This document shows positions 2,603 through 9,505 of a DNA stretch of 11,377 bases, piece after piece; position 1 is the first letter of the stretch, and the number at the start of each line of letters is the position of its first letter. The position numbers were made by a program, and so were the translations under genes. The notes below the pieces were generated by a model, which did not search any database, was not told the origin of the DNA, and saw nothing but the letters and a program-made list of their open reading frames with translations. Origin of the DNA: Burkholderiales bacterium (GTDB taxonomy: Bacteria; Pseudomonadota; Gammaproteobacteria; Burkholderiales; Burkholderiaceae_D); contig SYFN01000074.1 in NCBI GenBank assembly GCA_005800405.1, forward strand, positions 1 to 11,377. Direction: 5' to 3'.

Positions 2603-3937
2603 TCATACACCCAGCAATTGCCGAATGTTATGACGAGTGGTCGCATGATCCACTTCGGTATGTATGTCCTGTACAAAAAAAACTTCCAGCTGCGCGCGCA
2701 GCGCAATGGCCTGATCAATCTCGGGATTGGAGCCCATTTCATAGGCACCCACGGAAATCAGATCCTGGTTTTGCTGATACAAGGACCACAGCCGGCGTAC
2801 GCGATTGGCCAGCTTGAGCTCGTCAGCCGGCAATAAATCTTGCATGACCAGCGAGATGGACCCATTCAGATCAATCGCAGGATAATGCGCAGCGTCAGCG
2901 AGCTTGCGAGATAACATCACTTGCCCGTCCAGTGACGCGCGTGCGATATCGACAATGGGATCTTGCGCATCATCGCCTTCAGCAAGCACCGTATAAATAG
3001 CAGTGATCGCGCCATAACCATGACGTCCGACCCCGGTGCGCTCAACTAGATTCGGCAGCAGGGCAAACACCGATGGCGGATACCCTTTGGCGGTGGGTGG
3101 CTCACCGATCGCCAAACCAATTTCACGCTGAGCATGCGCTACTCGGGTGAGACTATCCATGAGCATGAGTACGTTCTTGCCCTGATCACGGAAATATTCA
3201 GCGATCACATGCGTGAGGTGCGTGGCTTTCAAACGCATCACGGGTGAGACATTGGCTGGTGCCGCAATCACGATGGATTTGGCACGACCTTCGGAGCCCA
3301 GTACTTCATTGATAAAGGCCTGAACCTCACGTCCGCGCTCACCAATCAACCCGATCACTACCACATCAGCTTTGGTAAAGCGCGTAATCATGCCCAGTAA
3401 TGAGCTCTTGCCGACGCCAGAACCTGCAATCAGACCGATACGCTGTCCCCTGCCCATGGTGAGCAAACCATTGATTGCTTTGACACCCACATCGAGTATC
3501 TGATTGATCGGTCCGCGTTCCATCGGATTTAGTGGCAATCCCAACAGCGCAAGCTTGTCAGGACAATCAGGTACCGGACCACCGTCGAGCGGCTGGCCGA
3601 ATGCATCAATGACGCGGCCCAGCAAGGCATTACCCAAGCGCGCTTCGGAGGAATTAGCGAGTACACGAACGGCCGCGCCGGGGCCAATACCGATAGGCTC
3701 GGTAAAAGGCATCAGGAAAAGTGTCTGGTCATTGAAGCCAACGACTTCGGCAGAGATTTTATTTCCACCATTGCCTTCAATATCGCACAAGGCACCTAGT
3801 GGTGCCATGATGCCGCGTGCTTCGAGCGTCATGCCCACCAGCCGTACCAGGGTGCCTGTATGGCAAGCGGGTGGCGTTCGCGTCTGGGCAATCAGACGCT
3901 CAACCACATCGGCATAATCAATCGTTGTTGTCATCAT
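2603..3937 (-). CDS. fliI: flagellum-specific export ATPase FliI
   Basis: FliI is the F1-beta-like hexameric ATPase at the base of the flagellar type III export apparatus; it helps load and unfold substrates from the cytoplasm. The 444-residue product has full family length. It carries Walker A AGSGVGKS (171-178, Lys177), the catalytic Glu in GERGREV (Glu200), Walker B VLMLMDS (256-262, Asp261) and the long signature LDGQVMLSRKLADAAHYPAID (336-356, conserved in FliI and related ATPases). Two ATG codons are adjacent (3937 and 3934) and either could be used. The start overlaps the 3' end of fliH by 20 bases, which suggests translational coupling. Nothing in the active site is missing. Confidence 0.98.
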   Translation of the reverse strand: MMTTTIDYADVVERLIAQTRTPPACHTGTLVRLVGMTLEARGIMAPLGALCDIEGNGGNKISAEVVGFNDQTLFLMPFTEPIGIGPGAAVRVLANSSEARLGNALLGRVIDAFGQPLDGGPVPDCPDKLALLGLPLNPMERGPINQILDVGVKAINGLLTMGRGQRIGLIAGSGVGKSSLLGMITRFTKADVVVIGLIGERGREVQAFINEVLGSEGRAKSIVIAAPANVSPVMRLKATHLTHVIAEYFRDQGKNVLMLMDSLTRVAHAQREIGLAIGEPPTAKGYPPSVFALLPNLVERTGVGRHGYGAITAIYTVLAEGDDAQDPIVDIARASLDGQVMLSRKLADAAHYPAIDLNGSISLVMQDLLPADELKLANRVRRLWSLYQQNQDLISVGAYEMGSNPEIDQAIALRAQLEVFFVQDIHTEVDHATTRHNIRQLLGV

Positions 3938-5249
3938 CGCTGCTCGAAGTTTCTACTGCAGTGACATCTTCAACATGCTGACTGCCACGCTGTGATTCAT
4001 TCAGACGATCGCTGAGTCGTCCACTACCGGCCTGCCAAGCGGGCGCTACGGGTTGGTTGAGTGATTTTTTGAGACCATCCAAACGACGCTGCATCAAGTC
4101 TTCGACCACGCTGCCATCGAGCGAGACGCGAACGCTGCCACGCTCCAGCAGCGAGTCAGGTCGCAAAATCATGCTGTCTCCAAATTGCGCAACCAGAGGT
4201 CGGTAGGCCTCGAGATCTTCAGGATTCAGATGCACGACAACGGCTTTCTCGCCGGAGGCGTTCAGTTCGCGCAGGCTGTTATCCACCAGCCGTGAAATCG
4301 TTTGTGGCGATTGCGCGATTTCACCGCGCACCAGTTGCTCGGCCAAATGCACGGTTAATTTTTTGACAGGTTCGAACAAGGCATCGGCATCAAAGCTGAG
4401 TTTTTGCAGTGCTTCCTGCAGTGTTTTGAGTTGGGTGATCTGTGCGTCATGTTCTTTTTGTAGTTCTGCTCTGGCCTGTGCTTTACCGGCTTCAAGGCCT
4501 TCGTTGTAAGTGGTCTCGCGGGTTTCGGCTCTCGCCTCTTCCCGTGCTGCCTCTACCAGCGCGGATACAGCTTCACCGGACAGGTCGGGTGTTGATGCTG
4601 CGCCCGGTACTGGCGTTGATTCGGATTCTTGCTCGGGTGCAGACGCCTTTAATTCGTTGTCGTCGACGCTGCCGGCAACCGTTACCTCTGTATCTGCTGC
4701 AGATACGTCGTTGAGCTCGACCGAAGCCGCAAGCATCTCGGTCTCCGTCTGCGAAACTGCAGCTGTGTCCGCGCCGTCGGCATCACTACCCGCCGTCATC
4801 AGATCATCAGCAGGCGGTAGAGTAGCGATGGTCTCATCCGGCTCGGTCTGCTCAGTGAAACCACTGGCATCCTGGGCTGTCATCGCCGCATCAGCGGTGA
4901 ACGTGTTTTGCTGCGCCGCCACCGCGGCATCTGAATCAGCCATTGCGGTTTTCGACACGAAAGCATCGCTGACCTTGGTTTCAGCAGGAAAGGCCGCAGC
5001 ACCCGTCAGATCAGCCAGCTCAAGCACTTCATCCAGTGCAAACGCACCCATGTCTTGACCGCTGATCAGCGGATCGGATTCGAAGCGGAATTCGGAACGC
5101 TCGCCGGGTGCCACAGTGAATGGCTGACTTTCCTCGACCAGCAAGTTTTGCACCGCGAATGGGTTGGTAACCGGATCGAACATCCGGTTAGGCATGTATT
5201 CGTGGCGCCGGCGCGCTGTGTGCGAAGACTCAGACAAAGTCGGCTCCAC
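3918..5249 (-). CDS. fliH: flagellar assembly protein FliH, with long acidic N-terminal extension
   Basis: FliH binds FliI as a peripheral-stalk-like dimer and links the ATPase to the C-ring and FlhA. Residues ~231-400 are a normal FliH domain: helix EAAREEARAETRETTYNEGLEAGKAQARAEL (positions 233-263) with the G-x-x-x-G-like spacing, then a globular C-terminal part with the conserved VVHLNPEDLE near 337-347 and SVRVSLDGSVVED near 372-384. At up to 443 residues it is nearly twice the usual ~230. Residues 101-230 hold 27 Asp/Glu against one Lys. The only Trp is W405, so the N-terminal Trp pair used by E. coli FliH is absent. The start is uncertain. The outermost is GTG 5249, inside fliG. TTG 5237 has the best ribosome site (AGGTGGAG, six bases away), and ATG 5195 and 5183 follow without one. 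Confidence 0.9.
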   Translation of the reverse strand: MEPTLSESSHTARRRHEYMPNRMFDPVTNPFAVQNLLVEESQPFTVAPGERSEFRFESDPLISGQDMGAFALDEVLELADLTGAAAFPAETKVSDAFVSKTAMADSDAAVAAQQNTFTADAAMTAQDASGFTEQTEPDETIATLPPADDLMTAGSDADGADTAAVSQTETEMLAASVELNDVSAADTEVTVAGSVDDNELKASAPEQESESTPVPGAASTPDLSGEAVSALVEAAREEARAETRETTYNEGLEAGKAQARAELQKEHDAQITQLKTLQEALQKLSFDADALFEPVKKLTVHLAEQLVRGEIAQSPQTISRLVDNSLRELNASGEKAVVVHLNPEDLEAYRPLVAQFGDSMILRPDSLLERGSVRVSLDGSVVEDLMQRRLDGLKKSLNQPVAPAWQAGSGRLSDRLNESQRGSQHVEDVTAVETSSSDDDNND

Positions 5250-6306
5250 CTGAAGCGAGGATCAACTCGCCCTTCTCGGATAGTTTTCGGGCCTGACGCA
5301 TGACTTTCTTTTGTGCGTCTTCGACTTCGGTCATCCGCAGAGGACCTTTGGATTCCATGTCGTCGACGAACATGCTGCGTGCACGACTGGACATATTGTC
5401 GAGGAACTTGTTCTTGACTTCGTCAGTTGCCCCCTTGAGTGCCACCATGAGCATATCCGGTTCGACTGCGCGCATGAGCGCCTGGATGCCACGATTGTCC
5501 ACCCCGGCCAGATTCTCGAAGCTGAACATATTGTCCTGAATGCGCAGCGCAAGCTCTTCATCAATCTGACCCACGCCTTGCATGATGGCGGATTCGAGCT
5601 CGACCTTGGTAAAGTTCATGATCTTCGCCGCAGCCTTGACGCCACCGAAACTCGACGAGGAAGAAGACGCATTATTGGAGAACTGCGCTTTCATGATGGT
5701 TTCAAGTTCCTCCATCGCCGATGGCTGAACAGTATCGAGGCTGGCGACGCGGTGCACGACCTCCGGACGGGATTCTTCAGGCAGGAAGGCGAGGACATCA
5801 GCCGCGACTTCGGACTCGAGTACCGACAGAATGATGGCAGTGACCTGCGGATGCTCGCCGCGAATCATCTCGGCGATCGCACGCGCATCCATCCACTGCA
5901 AAATTTCCAGACCACGGCTGGCACGATTGGGCATGATGCGCGACAGCACGGATGCAGCCTTGTCAGGACCCAGCGCGCGCTTGAGGACGGTCTCGACGTA
6001 ATCGGTCGTTCCAAGCGACAGGCTGGTTTGTTTTTTCAGCATATCGACAAACTGGTCCAGCACGGCATTGACCGCCTCTTGGGACAAGTCCGCCACCGAC
6101 ACCATGGCCGCACCGAGTTCCTGCACCTCTTTGGGATCAAGATAGCTGATGATGTTCGACGCAAGGTCTTCACCAAGCAATAGCATGAGCACGGCTGCTC
6201 GCTGCGTGCTGGTGAGCTCAGCCAGTTCGCGCTTGAGTTCTTCGGACATCGGCGGAGGACCGCCATCCGGCTTGGGAGCTTCTGCGTTGGTTTGTGAATC
6301 TGCCAT
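5230..6306 (-). CDS. fliG: flagellar motor switch protein FliG
   Basis: FliG sits on the cytoplasmic face of the MS ring and interacts with MotA to generate torque and switch rotation. The 358-residue product is slightly longer than usual owing to a ~30-residue polar N-terminus before the FliF-binding domain (ALVLMLLLGED-like core near 36-47, LDPKEVQ 56-62). The middle domain has EHPQ (151-154), a six-serine linker (214-219) and the GGVKAAA hinge (221-227). All five torque-helix charges known from E. coli (K264, R281, D288, D289, R297) are present as K291, R308, D315, D316 and R324, so a working motor is expected. ATG 6306 is preceded by AGAGGT five bases away. It lies 22 bases after the unassigned gene and overlaps fliH. 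Confidence 0.98.
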   Translation of the reverse strand: MADSQTNAEAPKPDGGPPPMSEELKRELAELTSTQRAAVLMLLLGEDLASNIISYLDPKEVQELGAAMVSVADLSQEAVNAVLDQFVDMLKKQTSLSLGTTDYVETVLKRALGPDKAASVLSRIMPNRASRGLEILQWMDARAIAEMIRGEHPQVTAIILSVLESEVAADVLAFLPEESRPEVVHRVASLDTVQPSAMEELETIMKAQFSNNASSSSSSFGGVKAAAKIMNFTKVELESAIMQGVGQIDEELALRIQDNMFSFENLAGVDNRGIQALMRAVEPDMLMVALKGATDEVKNKFLDNMSSRARSMFVDDMESKGPLRMTEVEDAQKKVMRQARKLSEKGELILASGGADFV

Positions 6307-6328: not shown

Positions 6329-7045
6329 TTATTTTTTCTTTTCTGCGCCTGTTGAACGCAGCATGTTCTTGATCATCAAGACAACCCGATTCTGTTCTTT
6401 TTCGGTGAGAATTTTTACTAGAATCAGTTTGTCATCATAACTTTTTGCATCGCCCAGTAGCTCGGCCGGTACTGACACACTTTTTTTCGCAGGTTTGAAT
6501 TTATCTCTCATTTCAGCAAAATTTTGAGAGTCACCTTCCGCTGCTGCGGTATCGTCGACAGCGGGCTTGTCGTTTTTGCCCGCAGCTTTGTTATCCATGG
6601 TTGCCGTTGCGGTGGTCATTGACTTGGCCGGATCTTTGGTGGCTGAGTCAGTGGCGCCTGCTACGGCGGGCTTGGCTGCTGGTTTTGTGGCTTCCGCAGC
6701 GGCTTTTGCCGGAACTAGTGCGCTGCCTGTTGCTGTCTTGGCTGCAACTGCAGCGGTCTTGGCAGGCACTGCAGCGGTCTTTGCTGGAACGCCCGTTGTC
6801 TTTGCCGGCACTGTAGAGACCTTTGCAGGAATGCCTGTTGTCTTCGCAGGCACGCCACCCACACGCGCTGGCACTGCGGCGGTCTTGGCAGGAACCGCAC
6901 CAACCCGGGCAGGTACTGCCGCTGTCTTCCCAACGACAGCGACCGCTCTCGAGGGGACCACTGCGGCCTTGGCGGGCACTGCCGTGGCGGTTTTTACCAC
7001 CGGGGCTGCTGGCCGGGGAGCCTCAGATTTTTTTGTTTCTGCCAT
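6329..7045 (-). CDS. unassigned basic repeat protein with FliF-like FliG-binding tail
   Basis: I do not recognise a family for this 238-residue protein, which sits between fliF (33 bases upstream) and fliG (22 bases downstream) and is surely cotranscribed with them. Residues 23-106 are twelve exact heptads of the form VPAKTxx, with Lys or Arg at every seventh position from 26 to 103. Residues 11-128 hold 17 basic residues and one acidic. Residues 107-190 are low-complexity Ala/Lys/Asp. Residues 194-231 align without gaps to the last 38 residues of the FliF encoded next to it, 19 identical, including SYDDK and KNM-x-RS. In FliF this segment binds the N-terminal domain of FliG. There is no signal peptide or membrane segment, so it should be cytoplasmic. 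I infer that it binds FliG at the MS-ring/C-ring junction. The lysine-rich part resembles histone-H1-like tails such as AlgP, so nucleic acid or acidic-protein binding is an alternative. ATG 7045 has a weak GGAAA ribosome site. Confidence 0.9.
   Translation of the reverse strand: MAETKKSEAPRPAAPVVKTATAVPAKAAVVPSRAVAVVGKTAAVPARVGAVPAKTAAVPARVGGVPAKTTGIPAKVSTVPAKTTGVPAKTAAVPAKTAAVAAKTATGSALVPAKAAAEATKPAAKPAVAGATDSATKDPAKSMTTATATMDNKAAGKNDKPAVDDTAAAEGDSQNFAEMRDKFKPAKKSVSVPAELLGDAKSYDDKLILVKILTEKEQNRVVLMIKNMLRSTGAEKKK
6728..6979 (-). repeat. 12-unit, 21-base in-frame tandem repeat
   Basis: Twelve tandem 21-base units, each encoding a heptad of the form VPAKTxx (residues 23-106 of the preceding entry's protein). 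The fourth residue is Lys or Arg in all twelve, and the second is Pro in ten (Val at residue 38, Ala at 101). Because units are multiples of three, gain or loss of copies would change protein length without breaking the frame. The DNA copies have diverged at third positions, which suggests selection on the protein pattern and not a very recent expansion. Confidence 0.85.
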
Positions 7046-7078: not shown

Positions 7079-9103
7079 TCAAGACCTGACCATATTTTTC
7101 AATACGAGTGCCACACGACCGGATTCCTGCGAGACCAGCATGCGAATCAGCGCAACCTTGTCATCATAGCTGTTGGCGGTGTCGAGCATGTCAGCGGTGA
7201 AGGTTGGCTTCTTGGGCTTCATCGCCTGCATGCGCGCCTTGAGTTCATCCAAGGTCTCGCCCTCTTGCATCTCGATCTCGCCCTCCGCCAGCTCGGCCTC
7301 GGCTTCTGCCTCGGCCGCTGCGAGTCCAGCAGCCTCTTCCTCAGCCGCCAGCACCGCCGCTTCTTCTTCGGCGATACGTGCTTCCTCGGCGGCGAGCTCT
7401 TCTGCGGCGGCTTGCTCTTCTGCAGCGATCTTGGCTTCTTCGGCGGCCTTGGCTTCTTCCAGTGCCTTGACCTCTTCGGCTGTCGGTGTGACGACCGGCG
7501 GCATGATCTGGTTAATGGTCGGCCCTTTGACCAGTGGGCGTACCACCGCCAGCATGAAGACAATGATCACGAGTGCAGCCAGACCAATTTTAATGAAATT
7601 CTGTATGTCGCCATTTTCATACCAGGGCTTGGGTGGCTCCGGTGCCAGCGTCTCAAAGCGCGCTGGTGCCACCGTCACGACGTCGCCCCGCGCTTCACTG
7701 TAGCCTACAGCACTGCGAACCAGATTGAGCATGCGATCGAGTTCCTGCGCCGTGTACGGAATTGTTGTGGGCGCACCCGGTGGCAGAGGCTTGCCATCGG
7801 CCGGTGGTGGTGCAGGACGCTCAGCGACAACCACAGCCACCGTCACACGCGAGATATTACCCAGCGAATTCTTCACGTGACGTACCGAGCGATCCATTTC
7901 AAAGTTACGGGTGGATTTGGTCGTCACGATTTCATTCGTGGCAGGCTTTTGCTCATCCGTATTGGTGTTTTTCGTCAGGTCGGCATCGGGCGGCGGCGAG
8001 TTACTCATCGCACCTGGAATACCCTCTGGATCCAGCTTGAATTTACGCTCGGTAGTCAACGCTTCGGAACGCGGCTTGACACCCTTGTCTTTGTCATCAA
8101 AATCTTCTGTCGTCGTTTCGACCTGGGTGTAATCCAGCGTCAGATTGACCTGCGCCTGAACCGCAGCCTCGCCAACCACCGGCCCCAGCAATTCCGTCAC
8201 GCGATTGCGATAGGTTTCTTCGGTCCGCTGCTTGTGTGCCATTTGGGCCATGGTCAGCCCCATGGCGGCATCGACCTGATTTTCTTCGGTCATCAGGTTA
8301 CCCTGGTCATCCACCACTGAGACGTTCTGTGGTGCCAGATACGGCACGCTGGAGGAAACCAGATGCACGATGGCTTTCACCTGCGGTGTTGATACGCCAC
8401 GGCCGCTGTGCGGTGTCACTACCACCGAGGCTTTCGGGGTGGCGCGTTCGCGTACGAAAACACTCTGCTTGGGCAAAGCAAGGTGAACGCGGGCCGCTTT
8501 GATGGTGGAGATTTGCATAATGCTGCGCGCGAGCTCTTGCTCAATCGCGGTGTTGTACTGCACTTGTTCCATGAATTGACTCGTCGTCATGGAAGATTTG
8601 TCTTTCAGTGATTCCATGCCGATGGGCTGTGCTTCTTTCGGGATGCCCTGACCTGCCAGAAAAATACGTGCTTCGTGATAGCGCGACTCGGGAACCGTGA
8701 TTTGTCCGCTGCTGGTGTCGACTTTGGGTTTGAAGTCACCTGCCTTGAGCGCTTCAATCGCGGCCTGTTTATCGTTTTCAGTCATGCCGGGCATGATCGG
8801 ACGATAGGGTGTGGTCTGGGAAAACTGAAACGACACGGCAGCAATCACCAACACCAGCAGAATCATGAGCGGTATCAGCGCACGACGCACACTGGGCTGT
8901 TTTAGTACGCCATCCATCCAGTCGCGGAAGACGGAAACGCCGCTGCTCACGCCACGCAAAGCCTCGGGCAATTGGGTACCGGGTGCCGGCATGCCAGAGG
9001 TCGCGATGGGCATTGCCGTGGCAGCGCCATCACCGGCGCCATTCGGTGTCGCTGGAGGCAGTTGCGGCGGCATACCGCCCGGGTTCATTGTCGCTTCAGC
9101 CAT
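7079..9103 (-). CDS. fliF: flagellar MS-ring protein FliF, with long acidic cytoplasmic tail
   Basis: FliF forms the inner-membrane MS ring on which the rest of the flagellum assembles. The 674-residue product is ~100 longer than usual. Order of parts: a Pro/Ala/Gly-rich cytoplasmic N-terminus (1-70), membrane helix 1 (about 74-93), periplasmic ring-building domains (about 100-450, with ESRYHEARIFLAGQGIP at 139-155 and ARVHLALPK at 204-212), and membrane helix 2 (about 504-525). A Glu/Ala-rich helix follows at 541-610 (24 acidic, 4 basic residues), and then the FliG-binding tail at 637-674 (SYDDKVALIRML, LKNMVRS). The acidic helix lies between membrane and FliG-binding tail and would lengthen or stiffen that connection. 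ATG 9103 is 54 bases after fliE with a loose AGAGAG ribosome site. Confidence 0.98.
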   Translation of the reverse strand: MAEATMNPGGMPPQLPPATPNGAGDGAATAMPIATSGMPAPGTQLPEALRGVSSGVSVFRDWMDGVLKQPSVRRALIPLMILLVLVIAAVSFQFSQTTPYRPIMPGMTENDKQAAIEALKAGDFKPKVDTSSGQITVPESRYHEARIFLAGQGIPKEAQPIGMESLKDKSSMTTSQFMEQVQYNTAIEQELARSIMQISTIKAARVHLALPKQSVFVRERATPKASVVVTPHSGRGVSTPQVKAIVHLVSSSVPYLAPQNVSVVDDQGNLMTEENQVDAAMGLTMAQMAHKQRTEETYRNRVTELLGPVVGEAAVQAQVNLTLDYTQVETTTEDFDDKDKGVKPRSEALTTERKFKLDPEGIPGAMSNSPPPDADLTKNTNTDEQKPATNEIVTTKSTRNFEMDRSVRHVKNSLGNISRVTVAVVVAERPAPPPADGKPLPPGAPTTIPYTAQELDRMLNLVRSAVGYSEARGDVVTVAPARFETLAPEPPKPWYENGDIQNFIKIGLAALVIIVFMLAVVRPLVKGPTINQIMPPVVTPTAEEVKALEEAKAAEEAKIAAEEQAAAEELAAEEARIAEEEAAVLAAEEEAAGLAAAEAEAEAELAEGEIEMQEGETLDELKARMQAMKPKKPTFTADMLDTANSYDDKVALIRMLVSQESGRVALVLKNMVRS

Positions 9104-9157: not shown

Positions 9158-9505
9158 TCACACCGGCATGTTCAAGATATCTTCGTAAGCCTTGAGCACT
9201 TTGTTTCGTATTTGCATCGTTGCTTCGAAGGCCAACGAGGATTTCTGCATCGCGAGAACAACATCGGTCAGAGGTACATCCTCGCCGCGGTCATAGGCTT
9301 GTCTCAAGCTGCTCGCGTGCTGCTGGATGTCATTTGTCTTGACGACAGCCGCTTCAATCGCTTCACCAAAGGTCGGCTTGCCGACTTCCGGTGCCGGTAC
9401 GGTAAGCACGGGCGGCGTAGTCTTGCCCGATGAATCAATCTGATACTGACGCAATGTGGCCAACATGGAATCGATGTTGGCCTGGCTGTTGATTTTGTTG
9501 ATCAT
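9158..9505 (-). CDS. fliE: flagellar hook-basal body protein FliE
   Basis: FliE is a small export substrate that joins the MS ring and export gate to the proximal rod. The 115-residue product is about the family length of 105-110. The conserved C-terminal half is clear: FGEAIEAAV, a DVVLAMQKSSLAFEA stretch (around 80-95) and the ending QIRNKVLKAYEDILNMPV in which FliE proteins carry M-P-V or a close variant. No signal peptide is visible, as expected for a type III substrate. ATG 9505 has a GGGGG run eight bases upstream and starts 16 bases after the stop of the regulator, so it is probably cotranscribed with it or driven by a promoter inside the regulator's 3' end. Confidence 0.95.
   Translation of the reverse strand: MINKINSQANIDSMLATLRQYQIDSSGKTTPPVLTVPAPEVGKPTFGEAIEAAVVKTNDIQQHASSLRQAYDRGEDVPLTDVVLAMQKSSLAFEATMQIRNKVLKAYEDILNMPV

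Follow-up and report, generated by a model that had tools for sequence, protein, structure and literature searches.

The flagellar operon of a Burkholderiales bacterium raised the question of why the C-terminal tail of FliF should be encoded a second time, as a separate protein. The operon was located on the minus strand of the 11,377-nucleotide stretch of DNA that was analysed (contig SYFN01000074.1, here called the window). In this operon, fliE (9158-9505) is followed by fliF (7079..9103, 674 aa), by the gene of a stand-alone FliF-tail protein that we named X (6329..7045, 238 aa), by fliG (5230..6306, 358 aa), whose product is the presumed partner of X, by fliH (3918-5249), and by an ORF resembling fliI (2603-3937). 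fliE and fliH were identified by Pfam, fliF by Pfam PF01514 and PF08345 together with NCBIfam TIGR00206, and fliG by the Pfam domains FliG_N, FliG_M, and FliG_C, while the fliI-like ORF was named from its sequence alone. A ferritin-like (Dps-type) ORF of 115 aa was seen on the plus strand at 924-1271; the Pfam domain, with 142 positions, is longer. In other species, the accessible text of PMC6079021 describes the FliF C-terminal tail as co-folding with the N-terminal domain of FliG (FliG_N). In the window, this domain corresponds to residues 30-131 of FliG (5914..6219, minus strand; Pfam PF14842) and is the presumed docking site.

A copy of the FliF tail encoded between fliF and fliG

A sequence-only reading of the window had proposed that a second FliF-type tail is carried by a protein of its own, encoded between fliF and fliG, and the gene was found as described. 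X starts with ATG, and its residues 194-231 (6353-6466, minus strand) aligned without gaps to residues 637-674 of FliF (7082..7195, minus strand), with 19 of 38 positions identical, as the reading had claimed. By alignment and BLASTP, the tail-like core of X covered residues 183-231 (6353..6499, minus strand). BLASTP of whole X against whole FliF gave 22 of 49 identical positions with 2 gaps and E = 2e-10 for this single comparison. The local score of X 166-238 against FliF 561-674 was 110, while 2000 shuffles gave a mean of 28.8, an SD of 5.1, and a maximum of 50. When tested for non-significance, the similarity was significant by shuffling, BLASTP, and profiles. The proposed lack of a membrane segment also held. 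The best 19-residue Kyte-Doolittle mean of X was 1.3, compared to 2.88 in the TM2 region of FliF, and no membrane helix was indicated for the X of a second locus, L033 (0.75), or for a phage relative described below (V of L065, 0.4). The YscJ/FliF ring domains PF01514 and PF08345, both present in the adjoining FliF, were not detected in X (best Pfam E = 0.7). No convincing match to X was obtained in NCBIfam (best E = 2.8) or PHROGs (best E = 0.026). PDB sequence searches with X and with the profile of the phage relatives returned nothing relevant; elongation factor G, at E = 0.065, was taken as a chance match.

Duplication of the 3' end of fliF had been considered the simplest origin of X, and both the tail homology and the gene position supported this. 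In addition, two membrane-anchored tails found elsewhere keep a helix that, as in FliF TM2, terminates in a VVRP-type motif, which fits an origin by fliF duplication. The origin of X as a copy of the FliF tail was thus well supported. As a separate observation, the GC content of the X-core DNA (6329-6527) was 38%, against 54.8% for the window.

Conservation of X in the genus

A FliG search was conducted in 37 genomes, 21 of which, including that of the window, belonged to the same genus. A close FliG (87-100% identity) was found in 16 of the 21, and X was located upstream of fliG at all 16 loci. FliF with its own tail was readable 18-105 nt before X at 15 of these loci, which ruled out a misassembled or truncated fliF in place of a separate X gene. 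At the remaining locus, L005, the contig ends inside X, so X is cut and the fliF side is unreadable. At L016, the ORF taken as X had just 53 residues and began with TTG. In a 17th genome (G011), the same fliF was present, and its contig stopped 31 residues into the X that came next. A profile search of the 21 genomes found X in 16 and, in G011, the FliF tail without X; nothing was found in G004, G012, G013, and G018, and several of these genomes are incomplete. G013 had a FliG of only 43% identity, and G004, G012, and G018 gave no FliG match. X was present, whole or in part, in 17 of the 21 genomes, and the other four were without this type of fliF. Checking the position in relatives, as the reading had proposed, placed X between fliF and fliG wherever both sides were readable in the genus. 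A second, canonical-type fliF-fliG pair without X was seen in two genomes of the genus (L216 of G007 and L020 of G013). G007 has two systems, and in the second one a canonical FliF tail goes with overlapping fliF and fliG. A protein search with the X of the window gave 20 relatives among 27 candidates, all with the same core. These results meant that X is a conserved family tied to this operon type.

A variable extension and a conserved core

In the window, X carries a basic VPAK heptad-repeat extension at residues 23-114 (6704..6979, minus strand), which is specific to the window's subclade. It contains ten matches to [VIL]PA[KRN], and the DNA shows tandem repeats of 21 and 42 bp. The sequence-only reading had treated fusion to this repeat-rich sequence as the defining event and had suggested the tethering of nucleic acid. 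However, the VPAK repeat was present only in L003, L004, L005, and L006, with extension net charges of +13, +14, +2 (cut), and +10, respectively. The other 12 of the 16 same-genus loci had extensions of 0-46 residues with net charges of -4 to 0. The length of X ranged from 70 to 238 aa where the start was readable (L005 and L016 left out). In the database search, in which the window's own protein was the query, 18 of 20 relatives had the repeat, and two proteins (P0022 and P0023) had an A/P/K-rich extension without heptads. Histone H1-like bacterial proteins are rich in lysine, alanine, and proline, and their composition is similar to that of the window's extension. In contrast to such proteins, 12 of 16 same-genus X proteins lacked the repeat, and X matched no family of this kind in Pfam or NCBIfam. 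Because the repeat is missing from these 12 loci, it was ruled out as the essence of X, the fusion was dropped as the defining event, and nucleic-acid tethering is not a shared function of X. The VPAK repeat is a variable extension and incidental to X.

Short members of the family consist almost of the docking core alone. The core of ~50 residues was common to 19 aligned proteins and comprises a lysine-rich stretch followed roughly by A.[ST]Y[DE]DK[LV]...K.L[TS]EKE..R..L..KN[ML]L. Counting only pairs with pS of 0.05-0.7, the median pN/pS was 0.20 for the X core (45 pairs) and 0.26 for the core of the phage relatives (23 pairs), compared to 0.05 for both the FliF tail (61 pairs) and FliG (56 pairs). 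The X core is under purifying selection and evolves faster than the FliF tail. This faster evolution, together with the variable extension, could be expected if X were a functionless relic of the fliF duplication. However, the presence of X in 17 of 17 genus genomes with this operon type and the median pN/pS of the core made such a relic highly improbable.

Further stand-alone tails in bacteria

Scanning named genomes yielded 29 loci among 148 candidate stretches. Some came from metagenome-assembled genomes with labels such as Oxalobacteraceae or Burkholderiaceae and carried X or this type of FliF tail; there were others as well. At ten loci from Comamonadaceae and other Burkholderiales, a second protein ended in the tail (ORFs of 203-297 aa, starts uncertain). 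Three loci (L049, L051, and L058) were read gene by gene, with the genes named from sequence. There, the tail protein, which we named Y, lay between fliH and fliI, and FliF had its own tail directly before fliG. The Y of L049 has a membrane helix (hydropathy 2.29). In G282, from another family, a 156-aa protein with a helix (2.21) and the tail was encoded between fliF and fliG. The tail was also found on proteins of 438 aa (L054), 420 aa (L057), ~260 aa (L202 and L209), and 283 aa (L207), all with hydrophobic stretches, which were measured in L054 and L202. No flagellar genes were seen by eye around L054, L202, L207, and L209. The ~260-aa tail proteins at L202:874-1653 and L209:1498-2286 adjoin mobA-like and fdhD-like genes (named by eye). 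The genome of L057 also had a FliF with this tail; the genomes of L054, L202, and L207 each yielded no tail beyond this one. In L059 (labelled K189A clade), a FliF of this type was directly followed by fliG.

Using a phage-protein profile, this tail type was found in 12 of 399 genomes of the order, including that of the window; a FliF-based profile might find more. In a separate comparison of 1820 candidates, 869 short proteins matched FliF-type tails at E<=0.001. Among the 120 listed (P0144-P0263), many were named FliF, and some, encoded on contigs of 99 kb to 1.5 Mb, were 61-64 aa long. Either pieces of broken FliF genes or genuine separate tails could account for them.

A homologous protein family in phages

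Searching viral contigs with an alignment of X yielded 179 candidate stretches and, among them, 56 loci, all with a short ORF of a type that we named V. In the 38 loci examined, the V ORF was ~63-80 aa long from the likely ATG. A phage-only alignment retrieved 108 relatives among 179 stretches, of which 80 were kept. An alignment of bacterial FliF-type tails containing neither X nor V also retrieved 24 viral loci among 44 stretches; of five examined, four had V ORFs and one (L240) had a V cut by the contig end. The V profile matched 1211 protein clusters at E<=0.01 among 8000 candidates scored, some of which may be FliF ends or X. Of those clusters, the 120 listed were 67-82 aa long and without a Pfam domain. 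By a motif rule, a V-like ORF was present in 154 of 158 viral loci, with L159, L182, L184, and L240 failing the rule.

The genes around V were of the phage type. In a first set of neighbours, a family was assigned to 7 of 10: a gp43-type DNA polymerase, an endolysin, Hsp20, PhoH, an exonuclease, and two of unknown function. A second set, also with 7 of 10 assigned, gave GTP cyclohydrolase I, DegT-type, Bax1-I-type, PTPS (QueD-like), a radical-SAM protein, DUF6267, and GP88. The L065 polymerase was nearest to those of Synechococcus phages (cyanophages) and unannotated marine viruses, at ~53%. The six flagellar proteins of the window gave no match at E<=1e-4 in the 158 viral loci (1.06 Mb, flanks <=5 kb, with the same contigs repeated). 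The phage-type neighbours and the lack of any flagellar match within these flanks ruled out that the viral contigs were mislabelled flagellar loci. V is encoded by phages.

No match was obtained for two V queries in 50,697 named phage records, and four V proteins reached a best E of 0.11 in PHROGs. A search of viral contigs for a gammaproteobacterial-type tail (P0178) gave 56 pattern matches, none of them a relative. A conserved, unnamed protein of ~260-290 aa (DPLTLFALANGAVKLV...) was encoded beside V at 5 of the 56 loci (L065, L117, and three more) and had no PHROGs family. In the case of L155, a V-bearing phage contig of 165 kb, a permuted tmRNA was found at 7466-7876 that matched RF01850 (beta_tmRNA) and RF04321. 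Its score against RF01850, the Betaproteobacteria tmRNA, was 137 bits with a cut-off of 84, so a betaproteobacterial host is likely for this phage. A tmRNA of this type was over the cut-off in none of 19 genomes of the genus and in none of 12 other tail-bearing genomes. The host may therefore be a different betaproteobacterium.

Relationships among the tails

Profiles were built for the FliF tail (21 distinct sequences), X (14), V (61), and Y (10). The four profiles recognised each other with medians of 41-88 bits, against shuffle maxima of 8-15. With the FliF-tail profile, the median score was 54 bits for X (shuffle maximum 14) and 48 bits for V (shuffle maximum 8). These scores make V a homologue of both X and this type of FliF tail. 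When compared with 10 canonical FliF tails, the four profiles gave medians of 0.3-6.5 bits and best scores of 7.3-9.5, with shuffle maxima of 5.5-9.2. The FliF-type profile reached a median of 6.0 bits and a maximum of 9.5 (shuffle maximum 6.3), while the X and V profiles, with medians of 0.7 and 0.3 bits, had no detectable similarity to the canonical tails. The hhalign probabilities against canonical tails were 60% for these FliF tails, 65% for Y, 2.5% for X, and 1.7% for V. These scores suggested a weak link between this tail type and canonical FliF tails. For this reason, we infer through FliF that X and V kept the binding to FliG.

In FastTree (108 sequences, 67 columns, rooted on L059), X, V, and Y were set apart from the FliF tails (0.82). 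X and V each formed one group, and support for X+V was 0.49. In IQ-TREE (84 sequences, 62 columns, with 30 V sequences, 28 of them chosen from 61), SH-aLRT support was 97 for X+V+Y and 94.6 for X+V. There, V formed one group (93.6) inside X with unsupported nearest X neighbours (30.9), and L054 and L057 grouped with the FliF of genome G423 (83.7). With so few columns, the only points drawn from the trees are a common origin of X and V, a probable repeated origin of stand-alone tails, and a lean, no more, towards transfer from bacterium to phage.

The opposite direction would mean that X came from phage V, entering the flagellar operon and being kept there, for example, against other flagellum-using phages. 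The large V set (108 viral loci and the 1211 clusters, perhaps with some X or FliF ends) would agree with this, as would the GC3 of the window's X core, which was 22/60 (37%), below that of every one of the 139 fliF and fliG windows compared. However, GC3 was low for the surroundings (<5% of windows as low) in only 3 of the 16 same-genus cores (L003, L004, and L017). Because the other 13 were not unusual, the low GC of the window's X core was not taken to point to a phage origin. In addition, IQ-TREE placed V inside X and not the reverse, and the grouping of the fliH-fliI membrane protein with X and V (97) fits a bacterial origin. We consider a phage origin of X distinctly unlikely.

The same trees bear on the possibility that X is a brake, which would compete with the FliF tail for FliG so that fewer complete rotors form, and that phages adopted a ready-made inhibitor of motility. 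X and V share features absent from the FliF tail (DKL.LVK.LTEKE), V is nested inside X in IQ-TREE, and a bare tail that lacks the ring-forming part is what one would naturally expect of a competitor. However, FastTree gave X and V as sister groups. X also has the same operon position as fliF and fliG and is therefore presumably made together with them, which would be odd for an inhibitor. A brake is unlikely on balance.

Proposed docking on FliG

In the preferred reading, X would serve as a second plug for FliG_N independent of FliF, and phages would use V as a decoy for that site; we hold this to have an even chance of being correct. As a copy of its own FliF's tail, X would simply be expected to fit the place on FliG where that tail sits, and it probably binds FliG. 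X lay between fliF and fliG at 16 of 16 loci, and its start follows fliF in the 17th genome. The core of X would co-fold with FliG_N where FliF's own tail sits, so that X would be a soluble plug unattached to the MS ring. Its most likely role would be to occupy copies of FliG held by no FliF tail, either unassembled or, if FliG exceeds FliF, surplus in the C-ring. For Salmonella motors, the text available from PMC11087270 gives a proposed FliF33:FliG34 assignment, which makes a FliG without a FliF tail thinkable. In E. coli, the copy number of FliG follows FliF at ~34 according to the part of PMC10128058 at hand, which speaks against surplus FliG there. Phage V, as a nearly bare tail, would most likely take FliG_N and block or loosen the rotor of the host; a decoy would be the simplest use of such a tail. 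While the homologies, the operon position of X, the selection on its core, and the phage identity of the V contigs are shown by the sequences, we infer that X and V bind FliG, along with all effects on function.

Structure prediction was weak. A single-chain model of X joined to FliG_N by natural read-through had a pLDDT of 56 and a pTM of 0.45, and the control with the FliF tail and FliG_N, also weak, had a pLDDT of 61 and a pTM of 0.53. Helices were predicted at 27-35 and 39-54 in the X part of the former model. In the PDB, FliG is represented by chains from solved complexes and by a fusion with FliF.

Alternatively, X and V might keep the fold of the tail and bind a partner other than FliG, such as FliF itself or another protein. 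In addition to the lack of detectable profile similarity between X or V and canonical FliF tails, charge could favour this. The X core was basic at 16 of 16 loci (+5 to +11), while the FliF linker was acidic at all 15 readable loci (-17 to -34); in the window, the linker before the tail has 101 residues with a net charge of -22 (7232..7534, minus strand, coordinates derived from the sequence). X and FliF could thus also touch, although contact through opposite charges is a guess. However, the homology with the operon's own FliF tail is strong, and FliG docking is the known job of that region of FliF in other species, as described in the accessible text of PMC6079021. A different partner therefore seems quite unlikely, and docking on FliG is retained as the preferred reading.

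Discussion

The larger story is the homologous phage family V; the sequence-only reading had seen neither V nor the membrane-anchored paralogues. The closest known system is the FliF C-terminal tail docked in FliG_N (PDB 5tdy and 5wuj; FliF-FliG fusion chain 8z4d). X and V are homologous to the FliF tail of the bacterial genomes studied here. Unlike FliF, each is a protein of its own that lacks ring domains and, where measured (X of the window and of L033, V of L065), a membrane helix. PIT4 of Pseudomonas phage LSL4 is, like the proposed V, a phage protein interfering with host motility. It abolishes twitching and interacts with the histidine kinases FleS, PilS, and PA2882 and, unlike the proposed V, is not described as a copy of a motor part in the available text of PMC10714779. 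Among the titles and abstract openings returned by a full-text literature search, outside which most subscription papers lie, none described a stand-alone FliF tail or a phage copy.

These results suggested that the FliG-docking tail of FliF could be a portable module, with separate soluble or membrane-anchored copies in several Burkholderiales and, in a large family of uncultured phages, a mimic that would seize FliG. We judge this proposal to be evenly balanced. For the flagellar motor, this plug may be a detachable handle, one that phages use too. Two questions could then be tested: whether a strict one-to-one ratio of FliF to FliG is required, given the FliF33:FliG34 proposal in the available text of PMC11087270, and by what means phages disturb swimming. 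An abundant phage protein family, nameless in the libraries searched here, would also gain a candidate function. If true, V would be a phage protein acting directly on the flagellar rotor by copying a rotor part.
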